64,000 nt of DNA from Pegea sp. RAD2-039 (taxonomy: Eukaryota > Chordata > Thaliacea > Salpida > Salpidae): positions 868,001 to 932,000 of the forward strand of contig JAQGEQ010000339.1 in assembly GCA_034620365.1 (NCBI GenBank), read 5' to 3'. The position numbers and the translations under genes are program-made. How positions within the stretch are numbered: position 1 is the first letter of the stretch; every line of letters starts with the position of its first letter. Shown piece by piece: positions 29,590-64,000 of this stretch. The notes beneath the pieces were generated by a model, which made no database searches, was not told the DNA's origin, and was given only the letters and a program-made list of their open reading frames with translations.

Positions 29590-30720
29590 GCTATATGTTA
29601 CAAGAACATGATTTCACTGTTGAAGAAACGTGCAGAGCTGTTTGAAGTTGTAAGGGGTTGAGAGACGATAGCTTAATGTCCTTTGCATACACAAACACAC
29701 TGACATCATGTACTGCTACTAGTCTTCTGATGAGGCCTTTAATAAAAATTAAAAAGAGAAGGGGACCCAGAACAGAACCCTGAGGAACACCACTAGTGAT
29801 TTGACTAAAAGTAGATAAAGATCTTTTTACACGAGTTTGTTGGGTTCTACCTGATAGGTAATCTTCAATCCACTGTAAGGTAAAGCTTTTGATTTTTACA
29901 TTTTTCAATACAGTAACGAGCTTAGTGTGTGGGACAGAATCAAACGCTTTAGCAAAATCGAGATATATGATGTCACAGGGAGTGTTACTTTCATAATGGG
30001 CTGTAAGCTCATTAAGAAAAATGAGATGTTGAGTCAGGGAAGATCTCCGTTTCACAAAGCCGTGCTGGACATCAGATATTAGATGGTGCTCCATCAAATG
30101 ACTGGTCATATGATTGTGAATAATATGTTTTTGAGTTCTGCAAATAACTGAAGTCAGCGAAACTGGTCTGTAGTTAAGTGCGGTTTTTTAGGATCCTTTT
30201 TGTGAATAGAAGTAATTAAAGTTTTCTTTCAAAATTGTGGAATTCTCCTTCGCTTTAAAGTGATGTTAAAGAGTAGAGATAAAACAGAAGTAGTTTAAAA
30301 AAATGCAGGGATCTGATCAGAGGTGTTGGATACTGATAATTTTAAAGAAGATATAACCTTAGCTACCATATCAACCGTTATTTCAAGATATATTATCTCA
30401 GATACATTTGTGAGAATGTCAAAGTAGAAAAGAGGAGTCTTACCATCATTGGTTATAAAAGCGCTATTAAATTGATTATTTAGCAGTTTAGTTTTGTTAC
30501 CCAGTTCAACCACAAGTTGATTGCTGTTATCAAGCAAGGGATAATTTAAGATCTCGCCTTACGCTTGTGATTTATGAAGCCGGAAACATATTTTTTGTCA
30601 GATAAAGACAATTAGAAATGGATTTTTTGAAAAATATACTAAGACCAGTATAGAGGTTTGATGGAAGGGTCTGCTTAAGTTTGTTTCTTAAGAAGGTTTT
30701 TTAAATGCTGTAAACTCCAC
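29590..30720 (-). mobile_element. CR1/jockey-like LINE relic, reverse transcriptase region
   Basis: Reading from 30720 down: SGFINHKRKARS, then LLNNQFNSAF (pre-RT), a short gap, NYRPVSLTSVIC (RT block 1), LISDVQHGFVKRRSSLTQHL, IIYLDFAKAFDSVPHTKL (block with the first catalytic Asp), SGVPQGSVLGPLLFLIFI, then VFVYAKDIKLSS where the active-site FADD should be. The catalytic dyad is damaged (AKD) and stops interrupt the pre-RT part, so it is dead. No endonuclease domain or 3' tail could be delimited. Confidence 0.85.
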
Positions 30721-33208: not shown

Positions 33209-35845
33209 TTTTATAAATATTGTTATAAATATCAAGATTATTTAGCTTTCAGTAGTAGTGATTATTTTGCCACATTATGGCGTCCAACAGCTTTGGGCTT
33301 TTTAACAAATGTTCAAAGAAACTAGTTTGCTTATAATGCAGATTTCTAGTATGAATATTTATTATAACACGTAAAAAATAAAATTTATAAAAACTTCTTT
33401 ATCAAATGAGTAAAGATAACGCTTACCTAACAGATGTTTTAAAATAGTTAAATCTAATTAAATTTTGCATACGAGGTTGTGCATACGCGTTCTCTTAGAA
33501 CAGTTGTCATAAAAGATACTCACAAGATCCTTCTACCCGGCTTTTTATGGACTTTTTCTTGTTACAAATATATATCTTTTCAGGTTTGCACTCGGAACTT
33601 CCGTGTGTTGGGCGATAATCACTACACTACAGAGACACGATAAGTCTTATATGTCCATTCTATTTCGGTAAACTACAAAAACTAAACACCAATTTCAAGT
33701 CTTTACATAAAATACCCTGATAGCAACTAAAAGTATTAGAGTAACAAAAATTTTCGAGGGAAACAAAAATATTTAAGCTTGTAGCTTAAGGTATTCAAAA
33801 TAAAAAACTATAAGTAAAATCATAAAAATTGGTGATTTGAAACAGTTGCTGGTAAAAAAAACTCAAGCTTCTCATCTTTAATCTACAAGAGATTTAGTAG
33901 TTCTTAAATTATTAATAGTTATTTTCAAATAAGGCTAAGTACAAATTGCTTTATAAATTTTGACCTTTTTTAAGTTACTTCTTTTTATAATCATTTCACA
34001 ACAATAGTTATCGCTTACTTACCATGCCAAAAATATTAGTTATTGCAGTCACTACCATTTTCTTTCTATTTTTATTTGTATTTATAGGATTTTTAGAGCA
34101 GAACAACCAGTAAACTTGTTCATTTTATCTTGAAATAAAATAACTTTTATTGGACTCTCAGTTTAAAATGTAATTCATGTCAGAACTCTTAAGCAAAAAT
34201 GTTATATGACATTTTGAATTATTAATGTTTTTTTATAGTAGTTATTGGTGGAAACCATTTTCTAAATAGATTTAAAACTTTGCTTTTGATTATTGATGTG
34301 AAGTCGAAAGTACTACGGATATTCACTTCGAGAGTAAAAAATTAAAGTTACATCATTAAATCATTAAATAAAAACAGTCAAGTAGGGTATAACATAAGCA
34401 TAAGTTTACTACTTCAATTTGTATTGAATTCAAGAAGGACAAAAAAAATGTCATTTATATCTATATCTATCTAAGAAAATTGAATAAAACAATTGTTTTA
34501 GTAGTTTTTGAAAACAAAAAGAAAGCTTTCAAGTCTTTTTTCCACATAAATTCTGCAAAATAACAAAGCTTTAAATTTTCTAATTACGTTTGTGTATCAT
34601 AGTTTTACGTAAAGGTAATCAGTGCATTTATATAACTAATTTTTACTTTTTCTTATTTATTATGATAATAAAACAAATACTTGTCCGATCTATCTAAGTA
34701 AAACTATTTTTGATTTTTTCATAAATAATCTCACACTTTTTTTATTACTTTTCTTTCTAAGGCCAACTTGTAGTTCTTCGGGTAACAAAGCCGTTCTTAA
34801 GTGCTATACAAAGTTTATTTTCAATACTGCAAGTCACTTATATTTTCAATTTTCATTTATTAACAGAACTATTTTGAAATAGTATACTAAAAATTGTTTA
34901 TATGTTCAATTAACCAATTATTAAGTAAAAAATATCAGAAGTTGAATTGCTAAAGGATTTTTTTATTTTAAATGCTTATGTGATGGTGTTTGTTTTCGTC
35001 AATACTGAAATTGTTTTTTGTAATATTTTTTTCTATCATTGTGATGTCTATTAAAACTTTGAATCTAATAAAAATTTAGTTCAGTTGAAATAAATTTTGA
35101 TTCAAATGGTTAGTTTTGCATGTTTTAACCTGAATAAAAGTGATTTAATATATCACAAATTGTAAAACTTGAAATTTATGAAAGTATTGAACTTTTTTTA
35201 ACTATTATTATGTCTGTAAGTAATTAAGATCTCTTTAAAAAATGAAAACTCTAAATATTTTTTTCTTTCATATATTCTTTTAAACTATTAACATATTTCT
35301 GACATTAAAAAAATCAAGTTTATTAATTTAATATTTGTGTTAAATGTCTTATATTCCTGAAGTATATATTTGGATGATTAACAATTTTTGATTAATGTAA
35401 AAATTTTACTAAATATAAAACTTAGTAACAAGAATGTAAATAATAATAGAGATAACCTTCATAGTTTTTTATTGACTTCTATAACATTATTTTATATTTT
35501 TAATAATTCATTATTTGTTTTCTTTCTTTTTTTCAAAGTCATTTTTTCATTTGTTGTTTATAGATACGTTTTTAATAATTCTCCATTAGATGTTAATTTA
35601 AACTTAATTTTAGTTAAAAAGTATTTCTTATATATTCATAAATTTATAGTTTGACTTATTTAAGAAAAAAATATAATTTTGATAAAAGGTAAATTAATTT
35701 AGTTAACCTTTTTTATTAGTGACATGAATTTTTGTTTCAGTTTATTTTTAATCAAAATATTAAAATTATTTAGAAGTTGATTTAACTTTTTTATAACTCA
35801 TAATAAGTATACTCTTTTAATCAACATCATTAATTCTTTTTCTAT
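33209..35845. other. Intergenic AT-rich region with one SINE copy
   Basis: No gene supported. A SINE copy lies at 33521-33640. The open stretch at 35388-35654 is AT-rich Leu/Phe/Asn codons without domain signal. An acceptor CTATAG at about 35841-35846 marks the start of the GEMIN6 5'UTR segment. Confidence 0.45.
33521..33640 (-). mobile_element. tRNA-derived SINE, copy A
   Basis: Minus strand: head GTAGTGTAGTGATTATCGCC resembles the 5' half of tRNA-Val. A degraded B box (GTTCCGAGTGCAAACC) follows, then a body ending CATAAAAAGCCGGGTAGAAG. The body ending is shared with copies at 40.4 and 54.2 kb. Confidence 0.6.
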
Positions 35846-35899
35846 AGTGATATATTTGAGAGATATTATATATTGGGATTTATAAAATTAAAAAGCATA

Positions 35900-36370
35900 A
35901 TGCAAGATTGGAAGTTTTTAAAAGCAAATGAGAAATTTTCTTTTATAAAAAAGTATGTAGAAATAAATGTTCAAGAAGGTTTAAAGTTTAAAGGATTAGT
36001 TTTCACAGTTGATCCTGTTAGTGAATCTATAGTTCTTCAATCAGACAAAAAGGTGTCTATTATAAATGGCAGAAAGATTGAAAGTATTAGTTTAATTGAT
36101 AAATCTATTGATGAAGAACCATCTATTAATTTACATGATTTGATTACTCCAAAGCCACATTCTTTGAGTGAATCTGAGCTTAAAGTTAACAAAGAAAAAT
36201 TATTAAATTGGTTAAAACGTAATAAATTGAATGTATCCTTAGAAGGTGAAAATATTAAAGTTGAAGATTATGTCACTATCCTGCCTCCATATACAGCTGA
36301 TTCGTGTATGGCATCAAATGAAATTATTTTACAAAGAATTCAATCTATAATTGGAAATATGAAAGAATAA
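35900..36370 (+). CDS. GEMIN6: GEMIN6, SMN-complex component
   Basis: Single coding exon, 156 residues (human 167). GEMIN6 has an Sm-like fold and pairs with GEMIN7 in the SMN complex, which loads Sm rings on spliceosomal snRNAs in the cytoplasm. KGLVFTVDPVSESIVLQ matches human KGWVLTTDPVSANIVL; LLNWLKRNKLNVSLEGE matches the WLEKNHIPITEQGD region; ILPPYTADSCMASNEIILQR matches IDPPYGPENCSSSNEIILSR. I take ATG 35900 (MQDWKFLKANEKF), because the open frame further 5' has no ATG and begins just after a probable splice acceptor near 35846. PSMC4 starts 229 bp downstream on the same strand. U2, U5 and U6 genes, the clients of this complex (U6 excepted), lie about 18 kb to the right. Confidence 0.9.
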   Translation: MQDWKFLKANEKFSFIKKYVEINVQEGLKFKGLVFTVDPVSESIVLQSDKKVSIINGRKIESISLIDKSIDEEPSINLHDLITPKPHSLSESELKVNKEKLLNWLKRNKLNVSLEGENIKVEDYVTILPPYTADSCMASNEIILQRIQSIIGNMKE

Positions 36371-49466: not shown

Positions 49467-52286
49467 ATGGAGTCATCTTTCTTTATTCATCAGAATTGCA
49501 ATGTAAGTAAATCATAATTATAGTATATAGTTTACTTAAAATTATGTATAAGTAAAAATATTTAAGTTTAAATTAAATTTTTAGCATAATTTTTATAATT
49601 AATACAAATTTATGTTATAATTATTTAGTAAATTTATTATTCTGCACTTCTATTGGAGTTTATATTTTACTATATTTCTAGCAATATGTGAGATATTATA
49701 GACCATCTCCAAAATTGCTATTAATTTTACATTTAGCTGGATCTGAGCTTCAAATTTACAATGAGCAACAAGTAAGATATTATTTTCATGGATTTTATTC
49801 AAGTGTTGAATATTTGTTAAATATTTAGTAATATGTTTAAAATTTGTTTTCAAATTCAATTTCTTGTCTTTGATAACTTTACATTTTTAGATTATTTACC
49901 TGTTGAAGAAATATATGTTTGAAAATGGAATGATGAAAAGTAGAGATGCAACTAAAGCAACTAATCTCAATGATAAGATGAAGATGCTTCTAGATACAGA
50001 TCTGACAACTTTTCCTATTGAAGAGTAAATATTTTTTTATATAATTTTTAAAGCTTAAAAGTTCTTTCTTTTAAAGCATTTATTTCTTTTGACTTCTTAG
50101 AGATCTTTTTGATGACATTAGTGCCAGTGTAACACTGCTTGATGAAAAAGAAGTTGATGCTATTCTGAAACCTCCTCCAGAAAATCAGGTAAAAATTTCA
50201 ACAATTTTAGTAAAATCTCATTAAAAATATATCTTTTTATTCTAACAACTCTGGCAAAAAAATGAAAACCCTAATTTTGATGATTTTAACTTGCAGTTTT
50301 TCTCTAAATTTCATCCACAGTTTGAAAAATGATCTACAAATTTAGAAACAGTTTTATTTAGCACTCCAAATTACTTATACAAGTTTGCCCAGCTTAAGTT
50401 TTAGAATCTTACATCCAATTATGAAAAAAACAAAAATAATAAAATTCAATTAGCTCATTACAAACATAAAATAGGTAAAATATAAATTGTTACAATTAGT
50501 TTTTAAATCGAGAGTGTAAGTTTTATTTTATTGATGTTTAGAGATTCGGTGAGACATCAACTTCACAATTTAAAGATACAATTAGGATACAATAAAGGAT
50601 TAGCAAAAATAGAACGCAATTTTCTTAAATGCCAATCATTGCTAATGTTATACTGAACATCAATTTTCAGTTTAACATAGCATTAGTAATGATGCATTTC
50701 AATTACAGCTGGATACTATAGAGCAATAGCTCTTAAAAAGTAAGTTTAGTCTTTTATCCGTTTTTATTTCCATAAATCGAAGTTTGAAGTGAACAGAGAA
50801 GTATTTGGATATTCAGCTCGTCATTTATGACACCCAACAAATATTTTTGGATTTTTTTTGCTCTTTTTCTTCATAAATCTTTTATCTTCTTGCTTGTATG
50901 AGGAAGCTAGTTAAACTTCATCATCTCATTAGCTTCATTTTTCTTTTATTATTGATTTATAGAATGACGGTTGTGATGACATGAGCGACTGCCAATATGA
51001 ACAATTGATTGAAAGTATAACTTCAAAATTAAGTGATTGGTTAGTTGAAGATTCCGTCACAGAAACTGTAAATCAGGTTGTGGATTTGACAATTAGTTTT
51101 ATGAAAAATTCAATAAGTCGAAATGTAACTACAACTAAAATTGGTGCCCCAAAAGCCCCAGTAACCTCGCCACGTGAAAGATTGGCCATCAGTATGCGCA
51201 GATCTATTGACAAGATTTTGGAAAACGTCACAACAAACTCATCTGTTGATCTCGATGATTTGGTTGAAGTCTTAGAAGAAATCATTGTTTCAAATGATAT
51301 ATTTAAAAAAAGTTCTTATAAAACTCGTCGACGCGATTTGAAAAGTACAACGGAAATGCAAATAAATTTGTTCTTGAAACAATCTTGGAGCAAAAATATC
51401 CGACAAGTAGTAGTGGAAGCAGTGAAAGATGGTGTGGTGGGTTTACTACTTCAACATCATATCTGTTGTCATTAAACTGAACTTTTCACAGGATCACGAA
51501 TATTGTAGAAATTATGGATTCAAGCCAAAGATGAATTTAATCTACTCATCTTGCAGACAAGTTAAAGAAGATGATAAAACGGATAGTTCATCTTCAGATT
51601 ACGACTCCGATTCGGAAGATGGCGTTGATACGGTCAGATCACTTTCTATTTTTAGCTAAAAATAAAAGTTTTAATTTTCTTTACAGGCTGACTCTAAGGT
51701 ATCCGAACTAAATTCAAAGATTAAATCCGAAAATTCTGATGATCTGAACGTCTTAACAGATGATTCTGATACTATAAAGTATCCTATTCCTTTAAGACGC
51801 TATTTGACGAAGAGAAATTACGAAGGATCAATAAAAAGATCTTTAGAAAGTTTGAATCCGTCAAGCTCTTCTTCAAGTGGATTCTCATCAATGAGTGAAT
51901 CTTCCATCGAATCTTCAATCGAATCTTCTAGCAGATGTTCATCTTCAGGAGATTCTTTTATTGATCTTTCATCTAAACAAAACCTAATCAATTCGAGGCC
52001 TTCAAAAACAAAATATTTATCAAAAAAGTTTAGATTAAGCCGTGAAGATGAAGATATTCTAAAGAAGACTCACCTTGGCTCTAATCCGACGGCTGAAACA
52101 GAAACTTTGATCTGTAACTTATGTAATACTCATCAGATGAATGCTGTATTAGTTCATGGCTTGAGTGGTCATCAGTACGCTTGCTTCGAGTGTTCCCAGA
52201 TCTTATATGATCGACAAAAGCCATGTCCTTTGTGCCGAAGACCTATTTTGCTGGTCATCAAAACTTTTAATCATTTACTGACCTAG
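49467..52286 (+). CDS. MDM2: MDM2/MDM4-type p53 regulator, RING E3 ligase homologue
   Basis: Seven exons: 49467-49502, 49682-49771, 49891-50024, 50101-50188, 50963-51436, 51492-51632, 51687-52286. Total 1563 nt, 520 residues (human MDM2 491), in phase. The N-terminus (YYRPSPKLLLILHLAGSELQ, IIYLLKKYMFENGMM, TFPIEEDLFDDI) corresponds to the SWIB/p53-binding domain. The C-terminus is an MDM-type RING, LICNLC...VHGLSGHQYACFEC...CPLCRRPI, with Cys464/467, His478/483, Cys487/490 and Cys501/504. The tail LVIKTFNHLLT is four residues longer than the invariant MDM2 end. The central part (about 117-274) is predicted helical, not the acidic/RanBP2 zinc-finger region of vertebrates. No CxxC pair for that zinc finger is visible. 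A Ser-rich stretch with poly-Ser runs (about 365-405) precedes the RING. Whether it is active (MDM2-like) or not (MDM4-like) cannot be told. Confidence 0.88.
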
Positions 52287-53691
52287 AAAATCAGTTGTAT
52301 GGAAGAGTGCAGGTGGGAAGATTGAAGTGGAAAGATTAGAGGTGAAAGAAGAACGTGGTGGTTTGTAAGAGGGGCTTAGAAGAGAGTCCAAAGAAGACTA
52401 AAAGTCTTAAGTGTAACTGAAGCGCTTGAAACTTGATGAAAAGTTTTATAAAAAAGAACAATTTCAGTAAAATTTTCTTTAATCCAGAAAACTTGAAACT
52501 GTCAAACTGGGTTAATTGCCACTTCTTTAGATTAAGTTGAAGATCAACTATATTGCTAATTTCTTTTTTTTTAACTCTTTTTGTCTAATAATTATCATTT
52601 TTAATCTTATGTTTCGATAAAAAATTGTTTTTGATTGTAAGTAGCTTCTCCAATAACCTCGCCTGCAAATATCGAATAAATGAAAGTTTTTTTTAACAGT
52701 TATCGATTTATTCAATAAATCGATGGTTTAGATGTCTGATAGTCGATCTTTCATCGACATCTATCTTCATCTTTTTGGATTTATATCAGGATCCGTAGAC
52801 GTCTGAAGTAAAAAACTTGTCACAGTCCCCAAAGTCGCCGCTTGCGGATGTCAACGTAGGCAAAAGGTCGACAAGGAAGGGGAAGGAGGTGATGCCGACC
52901 AATTCCTTGAGGAGCCATTTACTGTTCTTTCTTTGGGTACTGGGGCAATAAAAACAAAAAGGTCAACATCATGGAGAAACGAGGGTAATCACGAACGAAA
53001 AGGGTGGTAGGGTTATGGAGGAAAAACCTTCCAGACTGTTCTCAGATATCTGGTTGTTATAATTGTGGAGAGAAACGAATTTGATGAATTATTTAAAACT
53101 AAAAAATGTGACCCAAAAGAGTTCATTGTGACATAGAAGAGATATTTAAATAATTTTTTATAAATATATATCTTGTTGCTGTCATAAAATAATACAAAGC
53201 AATCAGATTCTACTGACGTGAAAACACGCGGGATTATAAAAAGAGATGCAACCAATCACAGAATGAATGTATAAAAGTAACGTGCAAGGTGGCGCGCTTG
53301 TAACGTAGGTTACTAAAGTTCAAGAAACGCGATTAGTAAATAGAGCTTTGTAGAAAGTATTTTTTATATAAATCCGATTAAATGCAATTACAAAATCCAA
53401 CATCTATTGCTGATTAATTAGAAGTAATGAGGTCACACTAGTACATGTGGTCCGGCCTTTAACATATTTGAAGTGAACAAATATGGTTTCTTATCTTTAT
53501 GGAGTTTAATTTTAAATATAAAAAGTAGTTCAGAGTTGCAAGTTTATAGTACACAAACTAAATAAGTTACAAAAGTACAGGAAGTTTCCGTGTCTGTAAA
53601 TTTTAGTGTGGTTGTTGATGCTAATTTTGACTACCGATAATTATGTTGAAGTAAAATATCTAAAAGTTCGTCACGCTGACAAGCAAGTAGC
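52287..53691. other. MDM2 3' flank and a GC-richer, possibly LTR-derived block
   Basis: After the MDM2 3'UTR, 52780-53420 is clearly richer in G+C than its surroundings. It contains two TATA-like sites (ATTATAAAAAG about 53233, TGTATAAAAG about 53269). It starts near TGTCACAGTCCC (52818) and could end at CCAACA (about 53402), which would fit a solo LTR or a promoter. No target-site duplication was found. No coding region. Confidence 0.35.
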
Positions 53692-53796
53692 AAAATGAGG
53701 AACGCTTCACGATTTTTCGTGTCATCCTTGCGCAGGGGCCATGCTAATCTTCCCTTTATCGTTCCAATTTTAGTATATGTACCCGAATCACCATAC
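53692..53796 (-). pseudogene. U6 snRNA pseudogene (U6-a)
   Basis: Minus strand. The body matches U6 from ACATATACTAAAATTGGAAC to the 3' end, but the ACAGAGA box is changed (GATAAAGGGAAG). The 5' stem-loop is rewritten (GTATGGTGATTCGGGTAC instead of GTACTTGCTTCGGCAGTAC), and position 81 of the body shows CACGAAAAATC. No TATA or PSE lies upstream. Its 3' flank (about 53641-53691) matches that of U6-c, so it is a broken remnant of another array unit. Confidence 0.85.
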
Positions 53797-54194
53797 TAAA
53801 TAGGAGATACTTTTAATTTGAGTTTTAATTAAAATCTAGTTGATCATATAGTGTAAGTATAAAGATATATTTAAAATTTGCTAAAAGTAATATTAAGAAA
53901 ACTCAGAAACCAGCCGATAATAGCAGCCAGAGGTCTCAGAAGATCCTGGAAGAAAACCAAGTTTCTAAAGGATTTGGTCATCAACTTTTGGCTCCTTTTT
54001 TGTTTCTGGAGTACCCATGAATCTCCAGATATTGATCTTCTGGTTAGTTTTGTTTAGAACCTGAGGATTGGATAAACATTGCTGATATTTTTCTGTGCGT
54101 CGGTCCGCCGCATCACTAGATCTCTTTTCATTTTATTTAGAGTAACTGGCATTTCTTAGTTTTTCTGATCCTCATCATTGACCAGTCGAAAAAG

Positions 54195-54305
54195 GACTTC
54201 TTACTCGGGTCTTTTATGCACTTTTCTTTGTCGCAAGTTAGTTAAACTCAGGACAATTCGCGAGCTAGGCGGCGGGCGTAATAATCGCTACACTACTGCG
54301 ACAAG
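54195..54305 (-). mobile_element. tRNA-derived SINE, copy C
   Basis: Minus strand head GCAGTAGTGTAGCGATTATT resembles tRNA-Val. The body TTGCGACAAAGAAAAGTGCA and AAAAGACCCGAGTAAGAAG matches copies A and B. It sits just outside the left arm of the snRNA inverted repeat. Confidence 0.6.
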
Positions 54306-54482
54306 TAAAGCAGATCTCGACTTGAAAAAAATCTGCTAAACGTCCGTCAAATATTTTGTCAAATCATTTGCAAATGAATTTTTTCGGCTCGAATATTAAT
54401 TAAAAAGTTCTATATAAAAAGAAAAAGTGACAAAAATTATTGAATCATATAAAAAATTTTGTCTCACTGATTTCGGTCGCCC

Positions 54483-54514
54483 ACAAACACTAAGCTTTCC
54501 ATCGTGGCTATATA
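54483..54514 (+). promoter_or_regulatory. U2-a promoter: PSE-like and TATA-like elements
   Basis: PSE-like ACAAACACTAAGCTTT at 54483-54498 (-55 to -40) and TATATA at 54509-54514 (-29 to -24), separated by 10 bp. The same elements precede U2-b and U2-c. Confidence 0.7.
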
Positions 54515-54537
54515 CTCGCAGAAAGCCACCAATCGTT

Positions 54538-54727
54538 ATCGCTTCTCGGCTCTTTGAGCTAAGATCAAGTGTAGTATCTGTTCTTCTCAGTTTCAAACCT
54601 GAGAGGTAGGCCACTGGCCTACTCCAATGTTTGACTGAGTTTTTGGAATGGGATCAGCACGGAGAGCTTGCTCACCTCTGATCATGGGTCGGCCCGGTAT
54701 TGCAGTACCTCCGGGAACGGCCCACCA
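54538..54727 (+). ncRNA. U2: U2 snRNA gene (U2-a)
   Basis: Full-length U2, about 190 nt. The 5' end ATCGCTTCTCGGC and the branch-point recognition segment AAGTGTAGTATCTGTTCT are canonical. An Sm-site region GAGTTTTTGGAA follows stem II. The 3' stem-loop IV GGTATTGCAGTACCTCCGGG is the U2A'/U2B'' binding element. U2 pairs with the intron branch site in the spliceosome. It has its own PSE/TATA promoter and a 3' hairpin at 54728-54746. ORF-like reading on its opposite strand is an artefact. Confidence 0.96.
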
Positions 54728-54746
54728 CACTCTCCATTGGGGAGTG
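54728..54746 (+). terminator. Hairpin directly after U2-a
   Basis: CACTCTCC-ATT-GGGGAGTG can fold into an 8-bp stem (one G-T pair) with a 3-nt loop immediately after the mature U2 end. It recurs at U2-b (57797-57815, perfect) and U2-c (61070-61088, one mismatch). Probably a 3'-end processing signal; function inferred. Confidence 0.5.
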
Positions 54747-55514
54747 ATCTTTTGCCAAAATGTTTTCCTCTTACAATAGAGTTAATGTCAAGATGTAGTA
54801 CTTCTTTCGAACATTTGCTAATACAGAGCTGCTGGCATCTAATTTCAGTAATTTTAATTAACCCAAATTATATTAAATTTGTTGCAAAGTCTTTTTAGAA
54901 TGATTCAATAATTAGAATTTAAAGCAAAACTACAATTTTTATGAAATTATTCTATTTGTTTTGAAGTATTTATCTAAATTTCAAATTCTTAAAAAAAAAT
55001 ATTTTTGTTTAAAACTTTCATTGGAAAATGAATTTTAATCAATAATTTCATTTTATTACAAATATTCTTCAGTAAATTATTTTTATTCAAATATTCATCA
55101 TCTGTTGTTTCTAACAAAAATATTATTATGTTGATAACATCTCTTAGAAAACAAACTTTTATATTATTCTTTGAATATCACTATAAAATAATATAAATAT
55201 TTTTATGTGAAAAATAAAGAAAAATTATGATTTAATAGATAAAACATATTATGACAATATTTTTCAATTATTATTCAAAATTTAGTAAAATTTCACCAAA
55301 GATCTTTTATGAACTAAATCTAAAAATCAATTCAATCGCTGTCGTCTGTAGTTCGTCTGATATAGTGACATCAATAACCGAACAAAGATAAAATCGATGA
55401 GTAAATTAACGAGAATCTTTGATTCGATTTTTCAGTCAATCTTAAAAACTTGAATTGTGTTTGCTGACTTGTTCTACTGACAATGTAAAAAGAAATTTGA
55501 TCAGTTCTATAAAA

Positions 55515-55558
55515 GACGTCCTAACAAACACTAAACTTTTTTTAATCTGTTGTATATA
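55515..55558 (+). promoter_or_regulatory. U6-b promoter: GACGTC, PSE-like and TATA elements
   Basis: GACGTC at 55515-55520, PSE-like ACAAACACTAAACTTT at 55524-55539 (-61 to -46), TATATA at 55553-55558 (-32 to -27). The gap is 13 bp, 3 bp more than at U2 and U5 genes. Confidence 0.7.
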
Positions 55559-55584
55559 GAAACAGAGTCATTCAGTTCATTGAT

Positions 55585-55601
55585 TTACTTGCTTCGGCAG
55601 T

Positions 55602-55641
<40 letters not shown>

Positions 55642-55690
55642 GGCCCCTGCGCAAGGATGACACGCAAAATCGTGAAGCGTTCCTCATTTT
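55585..55690 (+). ncRNA. U6: U6 snRNA gene (U6-b)
   Basis: Full-length U6, about 106 nt. TTGCTTCGGCAGTACATATA leads into ACTAAAATTGGAACGATACA with the ACAGAGA box. AGATTAGCATGGCCCCTGCG (AGC triad region) follows, then GCAAGGATGACACGCAAAAT and a TTTT Pol III stop. U6 forms the catalytic core of the spliceosome and binds LSm2-8 at its U-rich end. The first base is T where U6-c has G, which weakens the 5' stem by one pair. It is Pol III type with an external TATA promoter. Confidence 0.95.
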
Positions 55691-56195
55691 GCTACTTGCT
55701 TCTCAGCGTGACGAACGTTTAGATATTTTAATGTAAATCACGTGATTTGAAACCAACATAAAACACAAATAAGAAAAAGCAGTCAGATCAATTTCAGTTG
55801 TAAGTATCTTCAATTGAGACACATTTTGAAGAAATTTCATCTCATCTACACATTTAGCGCAGAGTGACCGAGAGTTCTTGAAAGATGTCGGATTGTAATA
55901 GCGTGATGCACCTTCTACAAAATACAATAAATTTAATATTATTTTTCAAATTATATCTTTTTTACATAAATTTAATTTCTAATAATGAGCAGCATAAGTA
56001 GTTGTTATTACTAATGAATACAGATTTTGTAGAATCGTAAAGGTCTTTAGAGTAAAAAAACAAAGAAACAATTTGAGTAATTAGAAGTATTTAACATTTC
56101 AATTTAAGAATTAACAAATTTTACAACTCATTTTTAGCTTTTAAACATTATTTATATAAAAGTGTCGAGACTAAATGAGTTTATTGGAAAAGGTA

Positions 56196-56242
56196 TGACG
56201 TCATCACCCACAAATCTCAAACTTATAAAGGTGCTTATATAT
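56196..56242 (+). promoter_or_regulatory. U5-a promoter: CRE-like, PSE-like and TATA elements
   Basis: Palindrome TGACGTCA at 56196-56203, PSE-like ACAAATCTCAAACTTA at 56210-56225 (-53 to -38; 11 of 16 as in U6), TATATAT at 56236-56242. The gap is 10 bp. The same set precedes U5-b and U5-c. Confidence 0.65.
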
Positions 56243-56262
56243 GGATGAAGTTACATTGGAAG

Positions 56263-56388
56263 ATACTCTGGCCTCAGTTCAGTTCACGAATGAATCTTTC
56301 GCCTTTTACTAAAGATTTCCGTGGATTGGGGCAAAACAATGAGTCTTGATTAGTTTTTGCTTGACCTGTAGCTATTCGGCGCGGGTCT
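56263..56388 (+). ncRNA. U5: U5 snRNA gene (U5-a)
   Basis: About 126 nt. ATACTCTGG 5' end; the invariant loop 1 is present in TTTCGCCTTTTACTAAAGAT, followed by TTCCGTGG. A TTAGTTTTTGCTTG Sm site comes next, then a 3' stem GACCTGTAGC...GCGGGTC. U5 loop 1 holds both exons during splicing. It is the third gene of the left array arm, 572 bp after U6-b. Confidence 0.95.
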
Positions 56389-56719
56389 TCTTTTCTCAAA
56401 TATTATGATAAATATATAGATTTGAAAAAGTTTATATTTAAGGAATTACTTTTTCAAGTATAATCGAAATGCTTTTTTACCATTATTCAACTTTTATATT
56501 TCTTCAGTAACATTTCTTACTTGTTTCTTATATTTGTTTAATTTAGTACAAAACCATATTTTTTCAAATTCGCTTTTAACTTAGTAAATAATATTTTCAG
56601 ATCAGTTTGTTTTTATATGTTTTTGTTTGAAACTGACAAGCCCCTAAACCTCGAACAGTTTTAATATTAACTCGACCAACTCTTATCTGATTGTGCTTAT
56701 TCCAAGCCGGCTTTATTTA

Positions 56720-57796
56720 TAGTTGCACATGTTGAAAGATGCTTATTTGAATCTAAATTTGATCTTATCAATTCTACCTACCTCAGCTGTTTGTGATGAA
56801 TCATTTATTTCGACTAAAATTCAGTTATAACATCAAATGATATTCTCTCGCCAGCAAATATAACTTACAAAAATATTACTCTTTTCTTTCAAATTTCTTT
56901 TCAAAGTTTTTAAAGCAAGCGTTTTATTCATCTACTGAAAGAATCTATCGTTATTCAAGATCTGACGGATCTTTAACAATTTGTTTTTTATATTCTAACT
57001 TTTGTTGAGAAATTAGTGATTTGACCATTATCTAATTTTGAATATTTGATTTGTTATCCGTTCTCACTTTCATCAGTTAATCTTCATAATCCTTCTAGAA
57101 TAAGAGCTCTTTGCATTTCAAGGGATTTTTACAGTTATATACATATAATGGTAAAAACAAAACTAAGTTGAGAGAGTTTTTTTAAATCATAGAATCTTAA
57201 ACGTAAAGAGACGTCTTTAGTATTCCCAATTTTAAAATAAAAAATATCTTTCGGCGAAAGAGTAAAATATTTGTTAGCACATTTATAGATTTTCTTACAA
57301 ACCAGTTTGAGGATGAATAAAAACCCCAGTGAGACACTTTGATCCTCAAAATTTAGCCTTAAAAAAAATAAAGCCCACCCCATAATAAAATACCAATTAA
57401 GGTTGGGCAATTAGGATTTTTTGGATAACAAATCTTTCCCATAAATAGTCAAAAACACGTTTTCTAGTGAAATTATTCAATATGTCCAATAATATGTATT
57501 CAATAATAATTTGTATATAACAACTGTAATTAAAATTAGAGTAAACATTTCAAAAAAAAATGTAGTTTTGTATAAAACTCAAATTATAGAATCATTTTGT
57601 AAAAATACTTTGCAACAAACAGTTTAAAATAGTTCGGTAACATCTCGAGAATCATAAAAACTATAAAAAGTAAATTCCAAACCAAAGAAATCCTAAAATT
57701 AGATGCTTACCAACTCTGATTTTGCAATTGTTAACAAAAGCCCTTAACAATTTCAAGATTAATACTTGTAAGATGAAAGAAGTTTCTAGTAAATAT
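56720..57796. other. Spacer between the left arm and U2-b, no gene
   Basis: About 1.1 kb of AT-rich sequence between the left-arm flank and U2-b. The minus-strand open stretch 57410-57135 is hydrophobic and AT-driven, without domain signal. Nothing else is supported. Confidence 0.45.
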
Positions 57797-57816
57797 CACT
57801 CCCCAATGGGGAGTGT

Positions 57817-58005
57817 GGTGGGCCGTTCCCGGAGGTACTGCAATACCGGGCCGACCCATGATCAGAGGTGAGCAAGCTCTCCGTGCTGATCCCATTCCAA
57901 AAACTCAGTCAAACATTGGAGTAGGCCAGTGGCCTACCTCTCAGGTTTGAAACTGAGAAGAACAGATACTACACTTGATCTTAGCTCAAAGAGCCGAGAA
58001 GCGAT
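57817..58005 (-). ncRNA. U2: U2 snRNA gene (U2-b)
   Basis: Minus strand, full-length and nearly identical to U2-a over the transcribed part. PSE-like ACAAACACTAAGCTTT at 58045-58060 and TATATA at 58029-58034, gap 10 bp; perfect 3' hairpin at 57797-57815. It lies in the spacer of the inverted repeat, without a neighbouring U6 on its 3' side, and so belongs to a truncated unit. Upstream similarity to the other U2 copies extends to about 58140. Confidence 0.95.
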
Positions 58006-58429
58006 AACGTTTGTTGGCTTTCTGCGAGTATATATCCACGATGGAAAGCTTAGTGTTTGTGGGCGACCGAAATCAGTGAGAAAAAATTTTTCATATGATT
58101 CGATAATTTGTGTCACTTTTTCTTTTTATGTACAAATTTTTTATTGATATATTTCATATGATTTAATAAATTATGTTAATTAATCTTTTTATTTTGTAAC
58201 TTTCAATTGACCAGACGTTTGAATCTAAAAAATTGTTTATTGTTTTCAAACATAACTTGAGAAAATATTGGACGGCTGGGACGAAATCTTGCGGATTCTT
58301 CTATTTGTTGTAATGATAATGGCCTGTTTCGGCTGAGAACGGCTCTGATTGTTGTGCTTAAGGAGTGTTGTTAAAAATAAATCAAAATGCTGTGAGATGC
58401 AAAAGAGATAAGAAATGTTTAGAGTTTCT

Positions 58430-59060
58430 TCTTTTTATCCTTGATTTTTTTGCGGAGTAAAGAGCGCCATTCGGAGCGAATCTCTGGTATGATGTTGAGC
58501 GATTTTATATCATGCTTTCAAGTATTCTTAAAGCAAAGACAGGGAAGGCTGATGCTATGTTTACTTTTTGATGTATACTCACTTAACAGATCTCTTTAAG
58601 ATATATCTTTCACCCATCCAACAAATATATCTGAGCCAGTGAAGCCTTTGCTTGTCAAGAATGCTGTACACTGTCGTTAGGGCAGTATGTTTCATAACTT
58701 CCTTTATAAGGTCTTTTACTGCCACCTTAAAGGTGAAATCGGTTCATCAACATTTTTAGGTCTTTTGCTAAATATGCAACAACTGCTGCACCATCAGCAA
58801 AATCGACTTCACGGGTGGTAACATTTCTAAACTTCGCTTTATATGATTTATTACAAATATTTCCATCAAATCTTGAGAGAAAGCAGGTTACTTATCTAGA
58901 TGCACGAAAAGCTTGCTTCAGTAACAATGAGAAGATAATCCAAAAGAGCGTTAGTCAGGAACAACAATTTTTTGGTGCAAGAACACATCCTTGTTTTACT
59001 CCATTTTTGATGGTAAATGGTTCAGAAGAACTTCCATAATACTAGACTGTTGATTTAGTA
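58430..59060 (-). mobile_element. RTE-like LINE reverse transcriptase relic in the array spacer
   Basis: From 59040 down: SEPFTIKNGVKQGCVLAP (RT block), then REVDFADGAAVVAYLAKDL where FADD has become FADG, and near 58690-58430 a C-terminal part with ILDKQRLHWLRYICWMGERY and IRSEWRSLLRKKIKDKKK. These are the usual post-RT blocks of RTE-type elements. Stops and frameshifts are numerous. Related to 62.2-63.1 kb at a similar position next to U5-c. Confidence 0.75.
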
Positions 59061-59417
59061 TTTGCGTAATGATTTCACCATATTAAAGAGGCTTAGCTGA
59101 CATCCAATCTTCAACAACATCGAGAACAGATTTATCCTACTGACAAAGTTAAAAATTTTGCCAAAGTTGATGAGCCCGATATGCAAAGCCTGTATTATTC
59201 TTTGCATGTTTCCTGTACTTGATGCACAGGAATAAATCATAATTTTTCTAAGCATTTTGATCTGAAATAAATTGAAATAAAATTTAAAAACTAGTTTCAT
59301 TTGACCCTAAAAAATTGAAAAGTTGAGTAATTGATAAAAACAATTCGATTACACTTGAAAAAGTAATTCTTCAAAAATAGAATTTTATCATATTTATCAG
59401 GTTATTTTGAGAAAAGA

Positions 59418-59543
59418 AGACCCGCGCCGAATAGCTACAGGTCATGCAAAAACTAATCAAGACTCATTGTGTTGCCCCAATCCACGGAAATCTTTAGTAA
59501 AAGGCGAAAGATTCATTCGTGAACTGAACTGAGGCCAGAGTAC
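59418..59543 (-). ncRNA. U5: U5 snRNA gene (U5-b)
   Basis: Minus strand U5 with intact loop 1 (CGCCTTTTACTAAAG). It differs from U5-a at the first base (G for A), in GGGGCAACACAATG, and in the single-stranded TTTTTGCATGACC after the Sm site. PSE-like ACAAATCTCAAACTTA at 59581-59596 and TATATAT at 59564-59570, gap 10 bp, with TGACGTCA further upstream. Confidence 0.95.
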
Positions 59544-60115
59544 CTTCCAATGCTACTTCATCCATATATAAACAACTTTATAAGTTTGAGATTTGTGGGT
59601 GATGACGTCATACTTTTTCCAATAAACTCATTTAATCTCGACACTTTTGTATAAATAATGTTTAAAAGCTAAAATTAAATTCTAAAATTTGTTATTTTTT
59701 AAATTGAAATGTTAAATAACTTCTAATTACTCAAATTGTTTCTTTGTTGTTTTACTCTAAAGACCTTTACGATTCTACAAAATCTGTATTCATTAGTAAT
59801 TGCAATTACTTATGCTGTTGATTATTAGAAATTATATTTATGTAAAAAGAATTTAATTTGAAAAATAATATTAAGTTTATTGTATTTTGTAGAAGGTGCA
59901 TCACGCTATTACAATCCGACATCTTTCAAGAACTCTCGGTCACTCTGCGCTAAATGTGTAGATGAGATAAAATTTCTTCAAAATGTACCTTAATTGAAGA
60001 TACTTACAACTGAACTGATCTGACTGCTTTTTCTTATTTGTGTTTTATGTTGGTTTCAAATCACGTGATTTACATTAAAATATCTAAAAGTTCGTCACGC
60101 TGAGAAGCAAGTAGC

Positions 60116-60164
60116 AAAATGAGGAACGCTTCACGATTTTGCGTGTCATCCTTGCGCAGGGGCC

Positions 60165-60204
<40 letters not shown>

Positions 60205-60221
60205 ACTGCCGAAGCAAGTAC
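60116..60221 (-). ncRNA. U6: U6 snRNA gene (U6-c)
   Basis: Minus strand, full-length, with the perfect 5' stem-loop GTACTTGCTTCGGCAGTAC, ACAGAGA box and terminal TTTT. The best-looking U6 of the window. Promoter: TATATATA at 60246-60253 and PSE-like ACAAACACTAAACTTT at 60267-60282, gap 13 bp. Confidence 0.96.
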
Positions 60222-61089
60222 ATCAGTGAACTGAATGACTCTGTCTATATATACAACAGATTGAAAAAAGTTTAGTGTTTGTTAGGACGTCTTTGATAGA
60301 ACTGATCAAATTTCTTTTTACAATGTCAGTAGAACAAGTCAGCAAACACAATTCAAATTTTTAAGATTGACTGAAAAAATCGAATCAAAGATTCCCGTTG
60401 AATTACTCATCGATGTCATCTTTGTTCGGTTATTGACGTCACTATATCAGACGAACTACAGACGACAGCGATTGAATTGATTTTTAGATTTAGTTCATAA
60501 AAGATCTTTGGTGAAATTTTACTAAATTTTGAATAATAATTGAAAAATATTGTCATAATATGTTTTATCTATTAAATCATAATTTTTCTTTATTTTTCAC
60601 ATAAAAATATTTATATTATTTTATAGTGATATTCAAAGAATAATATAAAAGTTTGTTTTCTAAGAGATGTTATCAACATAATAATATTTTTGTTAGAAAC
60701 AACAGATGATGAATATTTGAATAAAAATAATTTACTGAAGAATATTTGTAATAAAATGAAATTATTGATAAAAATTCATTTTCCAATGAAAGTTTTAAAC
60801 ACGAATCTTTTTTTTAAGAATTTGAAATTTAGATAAATACTTCAAAACAAACAGAATAATTTCATAAAAATTGTAGTTTTGCTTCAAATTCTAATTATTG
60901 AGTCATTCTAAAAAGAGTTTGCAACAAATTTAATATAATTTGGGGTTCAAACTTAAGATTACTGAAATTAAATAATTTTACCAGCTCGGTTATTTTTAAA
61001 AGTTCAATATGAACGTTCTTAACAATCTCGAAACTAATTCCAGAAATTGAAACGATTTTAGCTAAAGATCACCCCCCAATGGGGAGTGT

Positions 61090-61278
61090 GGTGGGCCGTT
61101 CCCGGAGGTACTGCAATACCGGGCCGACCCATGATCAGAGGTGAGCAAGCTCTCCGTGCTGATCCCATTCCAAAAACTCAGTCAAACATTGGAGTAGGCC
61201 AGTGGCCTACCTCTCAGGTTTGAAACTGAGAAGAACAGATACTACACTTGATCTTAGCTCAAAGAGCCGAGAAGCGAT
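61090..61278 (-). ncRNA. U2: U2 snRNA gene (U2-c)
   Basis: Minus strand, full-length, transcribed part as in U2-a. PSE-like GCAAACACTAAGCTTT at 61318-61333 and TATATA at 61302-61307, gap 10 bp. The 3' hairpin at 61070-61088 carries one mismatch. Confidence 0.95.
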
Positions 61279-61452
61279 AACGATTGGTGGCTTTCTGCGA
61301 GTATATAGCCACGATGGAAAGCTTAGTGTTTGCGGGCGACCGAAATCAGTGAGACAACATTTCTTAGGTAACTTGATAATTTTTGTCACTTTTTCTTTTT
61401 ATATAGAACTTTTTAATCGATAAAATGTTTGAGTCGAAAAAATTTACTCAGA

Positions 61453-62170
61453 TTAACGTACCAGGTGATACAGTCTTATTAAGGTGTAATGTGTGTCATC
61501 TGAGTTGTCTGATGTAACTTGAGAGAAGGAACAACTGAGACGAAAACAGCCATAACTATCTAAATTCAAGAGACCAATTCGATGTTTATAACTATTGTAT
61601 TCAATATTATATTTGCTGCCTACTAATCTCGTAAATGTTGCTTGAACAAATTTAATTTTTTTGATATCACCAACTTGATATGGCATTCATGCACTGGCAT
61701 TGTATTCAAGAATTTAATTACCATTAGGATTAAAGGCCCTTATAATAAGAAAAACGAAATTGATTGATTTTGCAAAAATCTTAGAAACATAATTGTGTCG
61801 TTTAAAGTCAGACGATTGGGTGCCAAAGTGTAAGGACCAAAAATATTCTTTGAATAATAAATCCATTCAAGGAATATTGGTTCAAGGAATTTGTGGCTGG
61901 TTTGCGAGAAAGAGTTATATGTCCAGACTTTGTGGGCTGGATTCTGAGTTGCCAGTTCACAGACCAGTTCTCTACAGTGTGTAGTGCAAATTAAATTTTT
62001 GAAAAATTACCAGATAATAGCTTAATATCATCTTCACACACAAACACACTAACATCATCTACTGCAACAAGTATTCGTATCGTGATTGAATAAATCCCTA
62101 CAGTAAAAAAAAGGATGACTGATGTTGTGTTAGGCTTTTGATAGCTCCCCATACAACAGATCGATTGGGA
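61453..62170 (-). mobile_element. CR1/jockey-like LINE relic in the array spacer
   Basis: From 62110 down: VDDVSVFVCEDDIKLLSG, the active-site block with its Asp pair still present. Near 61686-61453 the post-RT segment IKKIKFVQATFTRLVGSKYN and HRIGLLNLDSYGCFRL follows. The first block matches the 29.6-30.7 kb relic (DVSVFVYAKDIKLSS), so both belong to one family. Interrupted by stops. Confidence 0.7.
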
Positions 62171-62199
62171 TCCGTTCCTATTCTATCTGATAGACGTGT

Positions 62200-63100
62200 T
62201 CACGCCAGGATAGCTTTTTCTTGCTTGACAGGCTGCTAGTGGTTGTTAGACCATAAAAAAAGCGTTAAAAAGTTCCTTATTAGAGGTGATTTGCTGTCAC
62301 GTTAAACGTGATGTGTAACAAAGACAACGAAAATGAAAGGTGTTCAGTTTATTTTGTTAGCTTCTGATAAAGTTCAAGTTTTCTTGGCCTTCATCAGTCT
62401 ATTGCAGATAGAGACTCTATAGATGGAATCCTTGCTTTTGATGATAACTTTAATTTATCCCAAACCCCAGAAGTGAATCGTGCAAATGTACCCGATGCTC
62501 TACAAATGCAGCTGTTGATCCTTGCTTCTATTCAAACTGATGATGTTATTTTTGAGCCTAGATAGATAAAATTATCTACATCCTCAACATAATAATAATT
62601 GATGTTGATTAGCTGTGGAACATTAACACCTTGGCTGAGAAATTTTATCTTTTTTAGAATGTTTTAAATTCCAAATTCCCTAGAGTCTGATGAAAATCAA
62701 TCCATCATCATCTGTAGGTCTTTTGTTGAACATGCAACAATTGCTACATCTTCCCCAAAACGCAAGTTATACACATGGTGATGGTTTTTACCTCGCTCTT
62801 TTCATTTAGACATGATTCATTGGAAGACTTCTATTGGGTCTTGAATGAAAGCAGGTTTCTTCAGTAGATGTATGAAACTTTTGCTTTAGTAAAATTGAAA
62901 ATAAAATCCCCAAGAGCTTTGGGGAGTGGCATACCCTTGTTTTACTCCGTCTTCGATGGTAAATGGTTCCGAGTAGCTATCATCATACTAATAGTTGCCT
63001 TAATGTTTGTTTGAAATGATTTCCAAGTATCGAGAACACACTCTTCCTACTGACAAGGTTTTGTATGGTCAATGAACGCGATAAAAAAACCCGTGTTTTG
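62200..63100 (-). mobile_element. RTE-like LINE reverse transcriptase relic beside U5-c
   Basis: From 62990 down: SEPFTIEDGVKQG, then EDVAIVACSTKDLQMMMD (active-site block, FADD lost). Near 62590-62390 come FIYLGSKITSSV, IEARINSCICRASGTFARF and VWDKLKLSSKARI, the typical YLGS...I..RI..A...F.RL..VW block. Stops and frameshifts throughout. Nucleotide similarity to 58.6-59.1 kb suggests both descend from one insertion in the ancestral array unit. Confidence 0.75.
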
Positions 63101-63576
63101 TTCTTTTCATTTTTTCTGCAATTGATCACAAAAAAATCATATCCATGCATAAAAATTTTGATTTAAAACCACATTATGACCAGGAATAGAATCTTTTAGT
63201 CGATATCTGCAGGCGAGAAAGTAACACACGAGCTAATAAAAGTATAAATAGATCTGTCCTGGAGTAAGCAATCAAATAAGAGTTGGTCGAGTTAATATAA
63301 AACTGTTCAAGGTTTAAAGTTTGTAATTTTCAAACGAAAAAAAATAAATGTAAACATAAAAAACCAACTGAATTGGAAATATTATTTATGAAGTTGAAGC
63401 GAATTTGAAAAAATAGTTTCAATCTAAATTGAACAAATATAAGAAAGAAATGCAGAAACTAAAGAAATATTAAAGTTGAATAATAACAAAAAACATTTCT
63501 ATTATACTTGAAAAAGTAATTCTTTAAATATAAACTTTTTCAAATCTATATATTTATCATAATATTTGAGAAAAGA

Positions 63577-63702
63577 AGACCCGCGCCGAATAGCTACAGG
63601 TCAAGCAAAAACTAATCAAGACTCATTGTGTTGCCCCAATCCACGGAAATCTTTAGTAAAAGGCGAAAGATTCATTCGTGAACTGAACTGAGGCCAGAGT
63701 AC
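63577..63702 (-). ncRNA. U5: U5 snRNA gene (U5-c)
   Basis: Minus strand U5; loop 1 and Sm site intact, first base G as in U5-b but TTTTTGCTTGACC as in U5-a. PSE-like element at 63740-63755 and TATA-like at 63723-63729, gap 10 bp. The sequence to the window end (63703-64000) continues the same 5' flank as U5-b, so a further U6 and U2 are expected just beyond the window. Its 3' flank (63240-63576) matches that of U5-a better than U5-b. Confidence 0.95.
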
Positions 63703-64000
63703 CTTCCAATGTAACTTTATCCATATATAAACAACTTTATAAGTTTGAGATTTGTGGGTGATGACGTCATACTTTTTCCAATAAACTCTTTTAATCTCAA
63801 CACTTTTGTATAAATAATGTTTAAAAGCTAAAATTAAATTGTAAAATTTGTTATTTCTTAAATTGACATCTTAAATATCTTCTAATTACTCAAATTGTTT
63901 CTTTGTTTTTTTACTCTAAAGACCTTTACGATTTTACAAAAACTGTATTCATTAGTATTTGCAATTACTTATGCTGTTGATTATTAGAAATTATATTTAT

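Follow-up and report, generated by a model that had tools for sequence, protein, structure and literature searches.

In a 64,000-nt window of contig JAQGEQ010000339.1 (C39) from the salp Pegea sp. RAD2-039, U2, U6 and U5 small nuclear RNA (snRNA) genes form a cluster built of repeated U2-U6-U5 units, partly arranged as an inverted repeat. We read it as a cluster of real, mostly functional spliceosomal RNA genes with their own promoters, in which the distance between a proximal sequence element (PSE) and a TATA-like box would direct the choice between RNA polymerase II (Pol II) and RNA polymerase III (Pol III), and in which gene conversion would keep the arms of the repeat alike. A probability of about 0.72 is assigned to this reading, covering the cluster, the gene conversion and the promoter mechanism jointly.

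Rfam models were applied to the whole window at their gathering thresholds (46 bits for U2, 44 for U6 and 40 for U5). They identify nine snRNA matches, three of each kind, all located at 53.7–63.7 kb of a sequence with a G+C content of about 28% (Table 1; window position 54377 is C39:922377). All nine exceed the cut-offs and none is rejected by the models alone, and the eight intact genes and one U6 pseudogene counted in a first-pass annotation of the window are borne out. The repeated unit described there is confirmed in its content of U5, U6 and U2, and its order is corrected to U2-U6-U5 in the direction of transcription. The two mirrored units, spacers included, are real in the assembly: C39:922377-924504 (unit A, window 54377-56504) aligns in inverted orientation with C39:929444-927309 (unit B, window 59309-61444), with 93.2% identity over 2150 bp. 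These arms, which have diverged by 6–7%, flank a unique 2.8-kb centre that bears a U2. Their U6-U5 gaps are equal, as had been noted, and measure 571 and 571 bp instead of 572 bp; a gap of 572 bp is found in a third unit (unit C), which continues past the window (U6, C39:932275-932381; U2, C39:933236-933428) and is followed by a further U2 at C39:940187. Units B and C are arranged head-to-tail, about 4.15 kb apart, with 94.1% identity over 2150 bp. Since unit A is inverted relative to this tandem pair, the locus is only partly a tandem array.

The genes themselves are well preserved. Each of the three U2 genes in the window covers the full RF00004 model (1–192 of 192) at 150.5 bits, and all three U5 genes retain CGCCTTTTACTAAAG, which we take to be U5 loop I. 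The U6 genes at 55585 and 60115 combine a match to RF00026 with an ACAGAGA box, a T4 end and an external promoter; the unit A copy starts with T, not G, and otherwise matches the U6 of the other units. The third U6 copy, at 53691, keeps the 3´ part and the 3´ flank of the unit U6, and its homology to the other copies stops at 53782. It is classified as a pseudogene because a PSE is absent (the best consensus match has 8 mismatches), the 5´ stem-loop is altered and AAAGGGA stands in place of the ACAGAGA box; by the covariance model alone, it would pass as a U6.

To characterize the promoters, we compared the upstream regions of 65 snRNA genes (15 U2, 13 U6, 15 U5, 16 U1 and 6 U4) from the 105.7-Mb genome (387 contigs), in which only the best candidates were scored, so that genome-wide counts are lower bounds. 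They derive from at least 74 matches; the nine outside the comparison are U2 on C101 (two) and C121, a partial U2 at C15:690553, two U6 below the cut-off, and U1 on C37, C29 and C38. The PSE, an 18-bp element with the consensus CCCACAAACACTAAACTT (up to 7 mismatches allowed), starts 55–64 bp before the Rfam start in all genes except the U2 at C15:702115, a truncated U2 at C32:1279466 and the U6 pseudogene. In the window, five PSE matches have up to 3 mismatches, where shuffles predict 0.11, and each of the five lies upstream of U2 or U6; the PSEs of the three U5 genes have 4 mismatches each, beyond the limit of that search. The same element precedes the U1, U2, U3, U4, U5 and U12 genes as well as the U6, U6atac, RNase P and MRP genes, nearly all of which also carry a TATA-like box. 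An identical 18-bp PSE is present in the U2 at C32:1276544, three U6 genes on C8, the U6 on C49 and the MRP gene, and no PSE column fully separates Pol II-class from Pol III-class promoters. A shared PSE at about −55 to −64 with a downstream element at a fixed distance is the arrangement of type 3 snRNA promoters, and the PSE is presumed to be the SNAPc site.

What differs between the classes is the spacing. With U6, U6atac, RNase P and MRP taken as the Pol III class from their homologues, we counted the first-best distance from PSE to TATA-like box in genes that have no more than 5 PSE mismatches and whose box reaches a score of 6 of 7 or higher. It is 9 bp in 12 U1 genes (10 bp in one), 9 bp in six U2 genes (11 bp in four), 9 bp in three U4 genes (7 bp in one) and 9 bp in nine U5 genes (11 bp in five). 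In the U6 genes, it is 14 bp (six genes), 16 bp (four), 15 bp (one) or 12 bp (one). The expectation, fixed beforehand, that U6atac, RNase P and MRP would show long and U12 short spacing held: U6atac has 16 bp, both U12 genes have 9 bp (one also 11), RNase P has 15 bp (also 17), and MRP, the PSE of which is a perfect consensus, has 16 bp. For U3, which was outside the stated expectation, the first-best spacing is a Pol II-like 5–9 bp in the six examined of nine matches, and one U3 has equal TATA registers up to 13 bp. In a pooled test without MRP, 75 promoters were reduced to 65 unique ones, three PSE-less genes being dropped, and compared with shuffles that scramble single bases of the interval from PSE to gene start. 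Of 53 unique Pol II-class promoters, 49 have a TATA-like box at 7–11 bp, compared with a mean of 4.9 and a maximum of 14 in the shuffles; all 12 unique Pol III-class promoters have one at 12–16 bp, where the shuffles give a mean of 1.2 and a maximum of 6. The first-best spacing is 5–11 bp in the Pol II class (9 bp in 37 of 53) versus 12–16 bp in the Pol III class, and the last-best spacing is 9–13 versus 14–17 bp. The distance from PSE to gene start, 55–59 versus 63–64 bp, also follows the class, bar one U6 promoter.

These distances suggest that PSE-TATA spacing decides, or helps to decide, the polymerase. One SNAPc-type factor would serve every gene in the cluster. In the Pol II-type genes, a TATA-like box about 9 bp past the PSE would lead to recruitment of the Pol II set; in the Pol III-type genes, a box about 14–16 bp past the PSE would recruit a Brf2-type TFIIIB and Pol III. 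The two positions differ by roughly half a helical turn, which would thus direct the same factor to either polymerase. In the available sections of two published accounts, SNAPc, bound at the PSE, brings in one polymerase or the other; the presence of TATA decides in vertebrates and the PSE sequence in Drosophila (PMC9652321, PMC4227766), and distance is described as the key determinant in plants (PMC9652321). The vertebrate rule does not hold here, because a TATA-like box is present in most Pol II-class promoters as well. The plant-type rule fits in form, with the same elements in both classes at a class-specific distance and an overlap of weaker secondary matches. The strictest version, that the PSE is fully interchangeable, that TATA serves both classes and that a change of about 5–6 bp (a half-turn) alone sets the polymerase, as a plant-like rule in an animal, is tentative; we put it just short of an even chance.

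Several points weigh against the spacing rule. The classes were assigned from animal homologues (U1, U2, U3, U4, U5 and U12 as the Pol II class), and gene starts are Rfam model starts. Both the PSE consensus and the rule were first derived from the same 65 genes, many promoters are duplicates, and only 6 RNA kinds stand against 4. The TATA register is ambiguous in TATATATA runs, and last-best values reach 13 bp in the Pol II class and start at 14 bp in the Pol III class. Secondary 6-of-7 matches overlap, occurring at 13 bp in 13% and at 15 bp in 4% of Pol II-class promoters and at 12 bp in 42% of Pol III-class promoters. The U6 promoter common to C81 and C114 has Pol III spacing with a PSE-to-start distance of 58 bp, and its gene has a changed 3´ end, in which CGTTCC is missing and the end is replaced. 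At each of bases 19, 20 and 21, counted from the PSE start, 10 of 12 Pol III-class promoters have T, whereas the Pol II class is mixed, so the sequence right after the PSE could contribute.

The last point also favours an insect-type rule, in which small PSE differences and the sequence just downstream decide the polymerase and the spacing difference is a consequence. In Drosophila, according to the passages available, one SNAPc site likewise serves both classes, the PSEA sequence decides and PSEB or TATA affects only efficiency (PMC4227766, PMC9652321); the downstream element lies 8 bp from the PSE in Pol II genes and 12 bp from it in Pol III genes, a difference of the same sign as in Pegea (PMC4227766). 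The Pol II genes of Drosophila carry a PSEB, whereas those of Pegea have a TATA-like element and may share an identical PSE with the Pol III class (PMC4227766 for the fly, in part). That identity between U2 and U6 or MRP genes, the lack of a fully separating column, and the long spacing of RNase P and the C81 U6, which have no TTT after the PSE, speak against the insect-type rule, which we regard as possible at clearly less than even odds.

The second part of our reading concerns the arms. The inverted repeat is probably real rather than a simple palindrome artefact, because its arms are 6–7% diverged, its unique centre bears a gene and a related locus on C32 has the same centre. In that locus, two units face each other across a truncated U2, the counterpart of the centre U2 without its 5´ part and promoter, at a position where C32 has a 222-bp gap. 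It is very unlikely that the inverted and tandem layout partly reflects chimeric palindromic reads or misjoined haplotypes and that the true array is simpler. This explanation would gain from the snRNA clusters at or near contig ends (the end of C114, the start of C81 and C121:559) and from the C81 palindrome arms, which are 99% identical over at least 2 kb. The divergence of the C39 arms around their 2.8-kb centre argues against it, as do the different copy number on C32 around the same centre and arms, and the 7.6-kb left flank of C39, which matches only itself and thereby also disfavours a plain haplotype duplication. The C81 locus is less trustworthy because of its contig-end position and its 99% identical arms. 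A near-perfect palindrome, 99% over at least 2010 bp, surrounds the U6-U5 pair at C81:6770-13000 and C114:365504-368272. C114 ends within a 98.6% copy of the C81 unit, with U5 and U6 present and U2 falling past the contig end, and the two may be the same locus.

We considered C32 and C39 as allelic haplotigs and rejected this origin. At the sensitivity of the search, the 7.6-kb left flank occurs only once, no alignment of at least 100 bp connects C32 from about 1283 to 1288 kb with C39 918–921.6 kb, and the U1 genes about 82 kb rightward on both contigs share only about 300 bp of 3.1-kb loci. We regard the two as products of a locus duplication; alleles that underwent a large rearrangement may be an alternative.

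To compare the arms, the three units of C39 and the two of C32 were aligned. All five agree over the whole U2 (193 of 193 bp); for U6, a single change sets one unit apart from the other four, and U5 is 97.5–100% identical. In this multiple alignment, unit A is 93.5 and 95.1% identical to units B and C, respectively. Whole-arm identity is 96.1% within C32 and 93.5–95.1% within C39, versus 90.0–90.9% between the loci, and the contrast is sharper in spacer 1 (U2-U6), with 98.6%, 93.3–96.8% and 85.8–86.8%, respectively. The unique centre and the right flank are less diverged between C32 and C39 (95.3% and 95.4%) than the arms. Among informative sites that divide the units two against three, 75 group both C32 arms, compared with 19 for the runner-up grouping. 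The arm boundaries of the two loci match to about 90 bp in the alignment coordinates, and the palindrome is therefore most likely older than the locus duplication: the C32 locus most likely derives from the same palindrome, with the arms homogenised later within each locus. Gene conversion between the arms, proposed in the first-pass annotation, would account for this likeness at least in the U2-U6 half. The signal is uneven, which tells against conversion along the whole arm: 62 of the 75 sites fall within alignment columns 391–1078, approximately spacer 1, and the values for spacer 2 (U6-U5) do not clearly separate the loci (95.3% within C32, 93.6–97.3% within C39 and 93.7–95.1% between). 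The proposal is therefore retained mainly for the U2-U6 half. Independent re-duplication in each locus is a weaker alternative to conversion.

The units could instead be decaying duplicates of a transposon-driven segmental duplication, with most U6 and U5 copies silent and the C8 genes as the working U6. Reverse-transcriptase-like decayed pieces between the units (58955-59041 and 62886-62987), the U6 pseudogene, the truncated C32 U2 and the 3´-changed U6 on C81 and C114 are in line with such decay. Nevertheless, U6 and U2 of units A–C and C32 are 99–100% identical despite a spacer 1 that differs by up to 14%, and the PSEs and TATA-like boxes of these genes are retained; we consider decay unlikely. 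Up to the T-run, the C8 U6 genes share one sequence with those of units B and C, and the U5 copies differ by a few bases, several being distinguishable.

Across the genome, at least 19 U2 matches (19 of 19 over the cut-off), 15 U5 (15 of 15), 15 U6 (13 of 15), 19 U1 (18 of 19) and 6 U4 (6 of 6) are found. The same-strand order U2-U6-U5 recurs on C39, C32 and C81. Nine of the 13 listed U6 over the cut-off have a U2 gene at a distance of about 2 kb or less. C39 contributes four of these nine, the pseudogene among them, C32 two, and C81, C114 and C49 a single one apiece. The remaining four are intact and form a U6-only group on C8, which has no U2 match. Seven of the 15 listed U5 belong to U6-bearing units (three on C39, two on C32, one on C81 and one on C114), and eight lie outside. 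The suggestion that the unit keeps the stoichiometry of spliceosomal RNAs constant is not supported, because copy numbers are unequal (at least 19 U2, 15 U5 and 13 U6 over the cut-off), U6 has its own group on C8, 8 of 15 U5 lie outside U6 units and the number of units varies by locus. Linkage of the cluster to 5S rRNA genes, which have an internal promoter, was also rejected: at least five 5S matches are found (5 of 5 over the cut-off), four on C1 and one weak match on C84, all away from the cluster.

The mixed unit had been called unusual. This does not apply to U2-U5 linkage, which, in the portions available of a comparative study, is common in the fishes studied and known in Drosophila, with a 5S-U1-U2-U5 arrangement in a sole (PMC3464664); it does apply to U6 inside the unit. 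The U2-U5, U1-U2 and U4-U5 linkages of fishes and Drosophila likewise place different snRNAs with their own PSEs in one duplicating unit, with U2 adjoining U5, but those listed there are Pol II-type only, whereas here U6 joins the unit and the units are palindromic. Pol II and Pol III genes also share one array in the 5S-U1-U2-U5 cluster of Solea senegalensis and the 5S-U2 linkage of oysters, in which the Pol III member is 5S rRNA and not, as here, a U6 of the PSE/TATA type (PMC3464664, same portions). The U1-U4 and U2-U5 clusters of Arabidopsis are similarly small and mixed, and most snRNA genes there carry the same pair of promoter elements, but these are upstream sequence element (USE)/TATA promoters and the clusters listed in the part available contain no U6, in contrast to the PSE and U6 of the salp unit (PMC545797). 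The C. elegans PSE/UM1 likewise has two sub-motifs before snRNA-type genes, at loci described in the available part as mostly TATA-less, in contrast to the 49 of 53 TATA-bearing Pol II-class promoters here (PMC2527325). Euglena has repeated small-RNA gene pairs (U3-U5 and U3-tRNA) with variable spacers, but it is a protist, and the partial text describes other genes in convergent pairs (PMC2784804).

A literature search that reached few subscription papers returned no precedent for a unit joining U6 with U2 and U5 and, by title or abstract start, none for class-specific PSE-TATA geometry in an animal. A TATA sequence is reportedly required in sea-urchin U2 promoters; a search on it returned, by title, no paper on the subject. 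The presence of TATA in Pol II snRNA promoters of an animal is thus unlikely to be a novelty on its own.

Table 1. Features of the snRNA cluster in the window and divergent U1 genes elsewhere (window positions unless a contig is given).
Feature	Location	Strand	Remarks
U6 pseudogene	53691-53796	-	Rfam RF00026, 96.9 bits
Left arm, unit A: U2, U6, U5 and spacers	54377-56504	+	93.2% to inverted arm
PSE of U2, unit A	54480-54497	+	TATA-like box 11 bp downstream
U2 snRNA gene, unit A	54538-54730	+	Rfam RF00004, 150.5 bits
PSE of U6, unit A	55521-55538	+	Three equally good TATA-like registers, 12, 14 or 16 bp downstream
U6 snRNA gene, unit A	55585-55691	+	Rfam RF00026, 108.7 bits
PSE of U5, unit A	56207-56224	+	TGACGTCA immediately upstream; TATA-like box 11 bp downstream
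U5 snRNA gene, unit A	56263-56383	+	Rfam RF00020, 81.9 bits
U2 snRNA gene, unique centre between arms	57813-58005	-	150.5 bits; PSE 58046-58063
Right arm, unit B: U2, U6, U5 and spacers	59309-61444	-	Alignment to unit A
U5 snRNA gene, unit B	59423-59543	-	79.9 bits; PSE 59582-59599
U6 snRNA gene, unit B	60115-60221	-	113.6 bits; PSE 60268-60285, TATA-like box 14 bp downstream
U2 snRNA gene, unit B	61086-61278	-	150.5 bits; PSE 61319-61336, TATA-like box 11 bp downstream
Start of unit C, tandem copy of unit B	63459-64000	-	94.1% over 2150 bp
U5 snRNA gene, unit C	63582-63702	-	80.8 bits; PSE 63741-63758
Divergent U1 genes	C40:371310, C40:178115, C40:176281, C40:223617; C39:1024117		Sequence comparison

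Beside the PSE, a TGACGTCA-like site (TGACGTCA, GACGTC or TGACGT; CRE/ATF-like) is found at −66 to −79 in 12 of 15 U5, 8 of 16 U1, 5 of 13 U6 and 0 of 15 U2 genes. In U4, it occurs in three of six genes, only at −20, and it also precedes several U3 genes; it may be a distal element.

Five of the 16 U1 genes examined (of at least 19 matches) form a strongly divergent family. Their 5´ end is AAACTTACTTGG versus the canonical ATACTTACCTGA, and roughly two thirds of their positions match canonical U1 (110 of 165 aligned columns in one pair); the predicted folds are also much alike. Each lies near a canonical U1 and has its own PSE and TATA-like box. The divergent 5´ end would best pair with CCAA/GTAAGTTT splice sites, with A at −1. 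At C115:167655-169437, U1 and U4 are located on the same strand about 1.5 kb apart, like the U1-U4 pair of Arabidopsis in the available text (PMC545797).

Elsewhere in the window, a domain search of the open reading frames (ORFs) identifies Fibrinogen-C, TIL, trypsin and RING domains. Gemin6 belongs to the SMN complex, which places Sm proteins on snRNAs; an ORF with Gemin6 domains (35834-36370, + strand) is located about 17 kb from the cluster, probably by coincidence. A C3HC4 RING protein to the left of the cluster (51675-52286, + strand) presumably resembles MDM2 C-termini. A reverse transcriptase ORF of 198 aa is present at 29591-30187 (− strand; RVT_1, E 6.2e-26). The decayed reverse-transcriptase-like fragments in the spacers between units, both on the − strand, carry PFTIKNGVKQGC and similar sequences, which we take as a reverse-transcriptase motif, and a 61-bp stretch there is 80% alike. 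A target-specific long interspersed element (LINE) was set aside as their source, as the pieces sit in spacers and never within snRNA genes.

How one PSE-binding factor serves two polymerases is an old question with three published answers, as set out in the available part of PMC9652321. In Pegea, both classes occur with nearly the same elements in one 10-kb cluster, and an identical 18-bp PSE is shared across the classes elsewhere in the genome, so that a single spacing swap could answer the question for this lineage. The promoter geometry is thus the part most worth following. The cluster also illustrates how a mixed unit may evolve in concert via inverted repeats. If the strictest version of the spacing rule holds, a plant-like distance rule would let U6 join a U2-U5 unit that is kept uniform by gene conversion within a palindrome.

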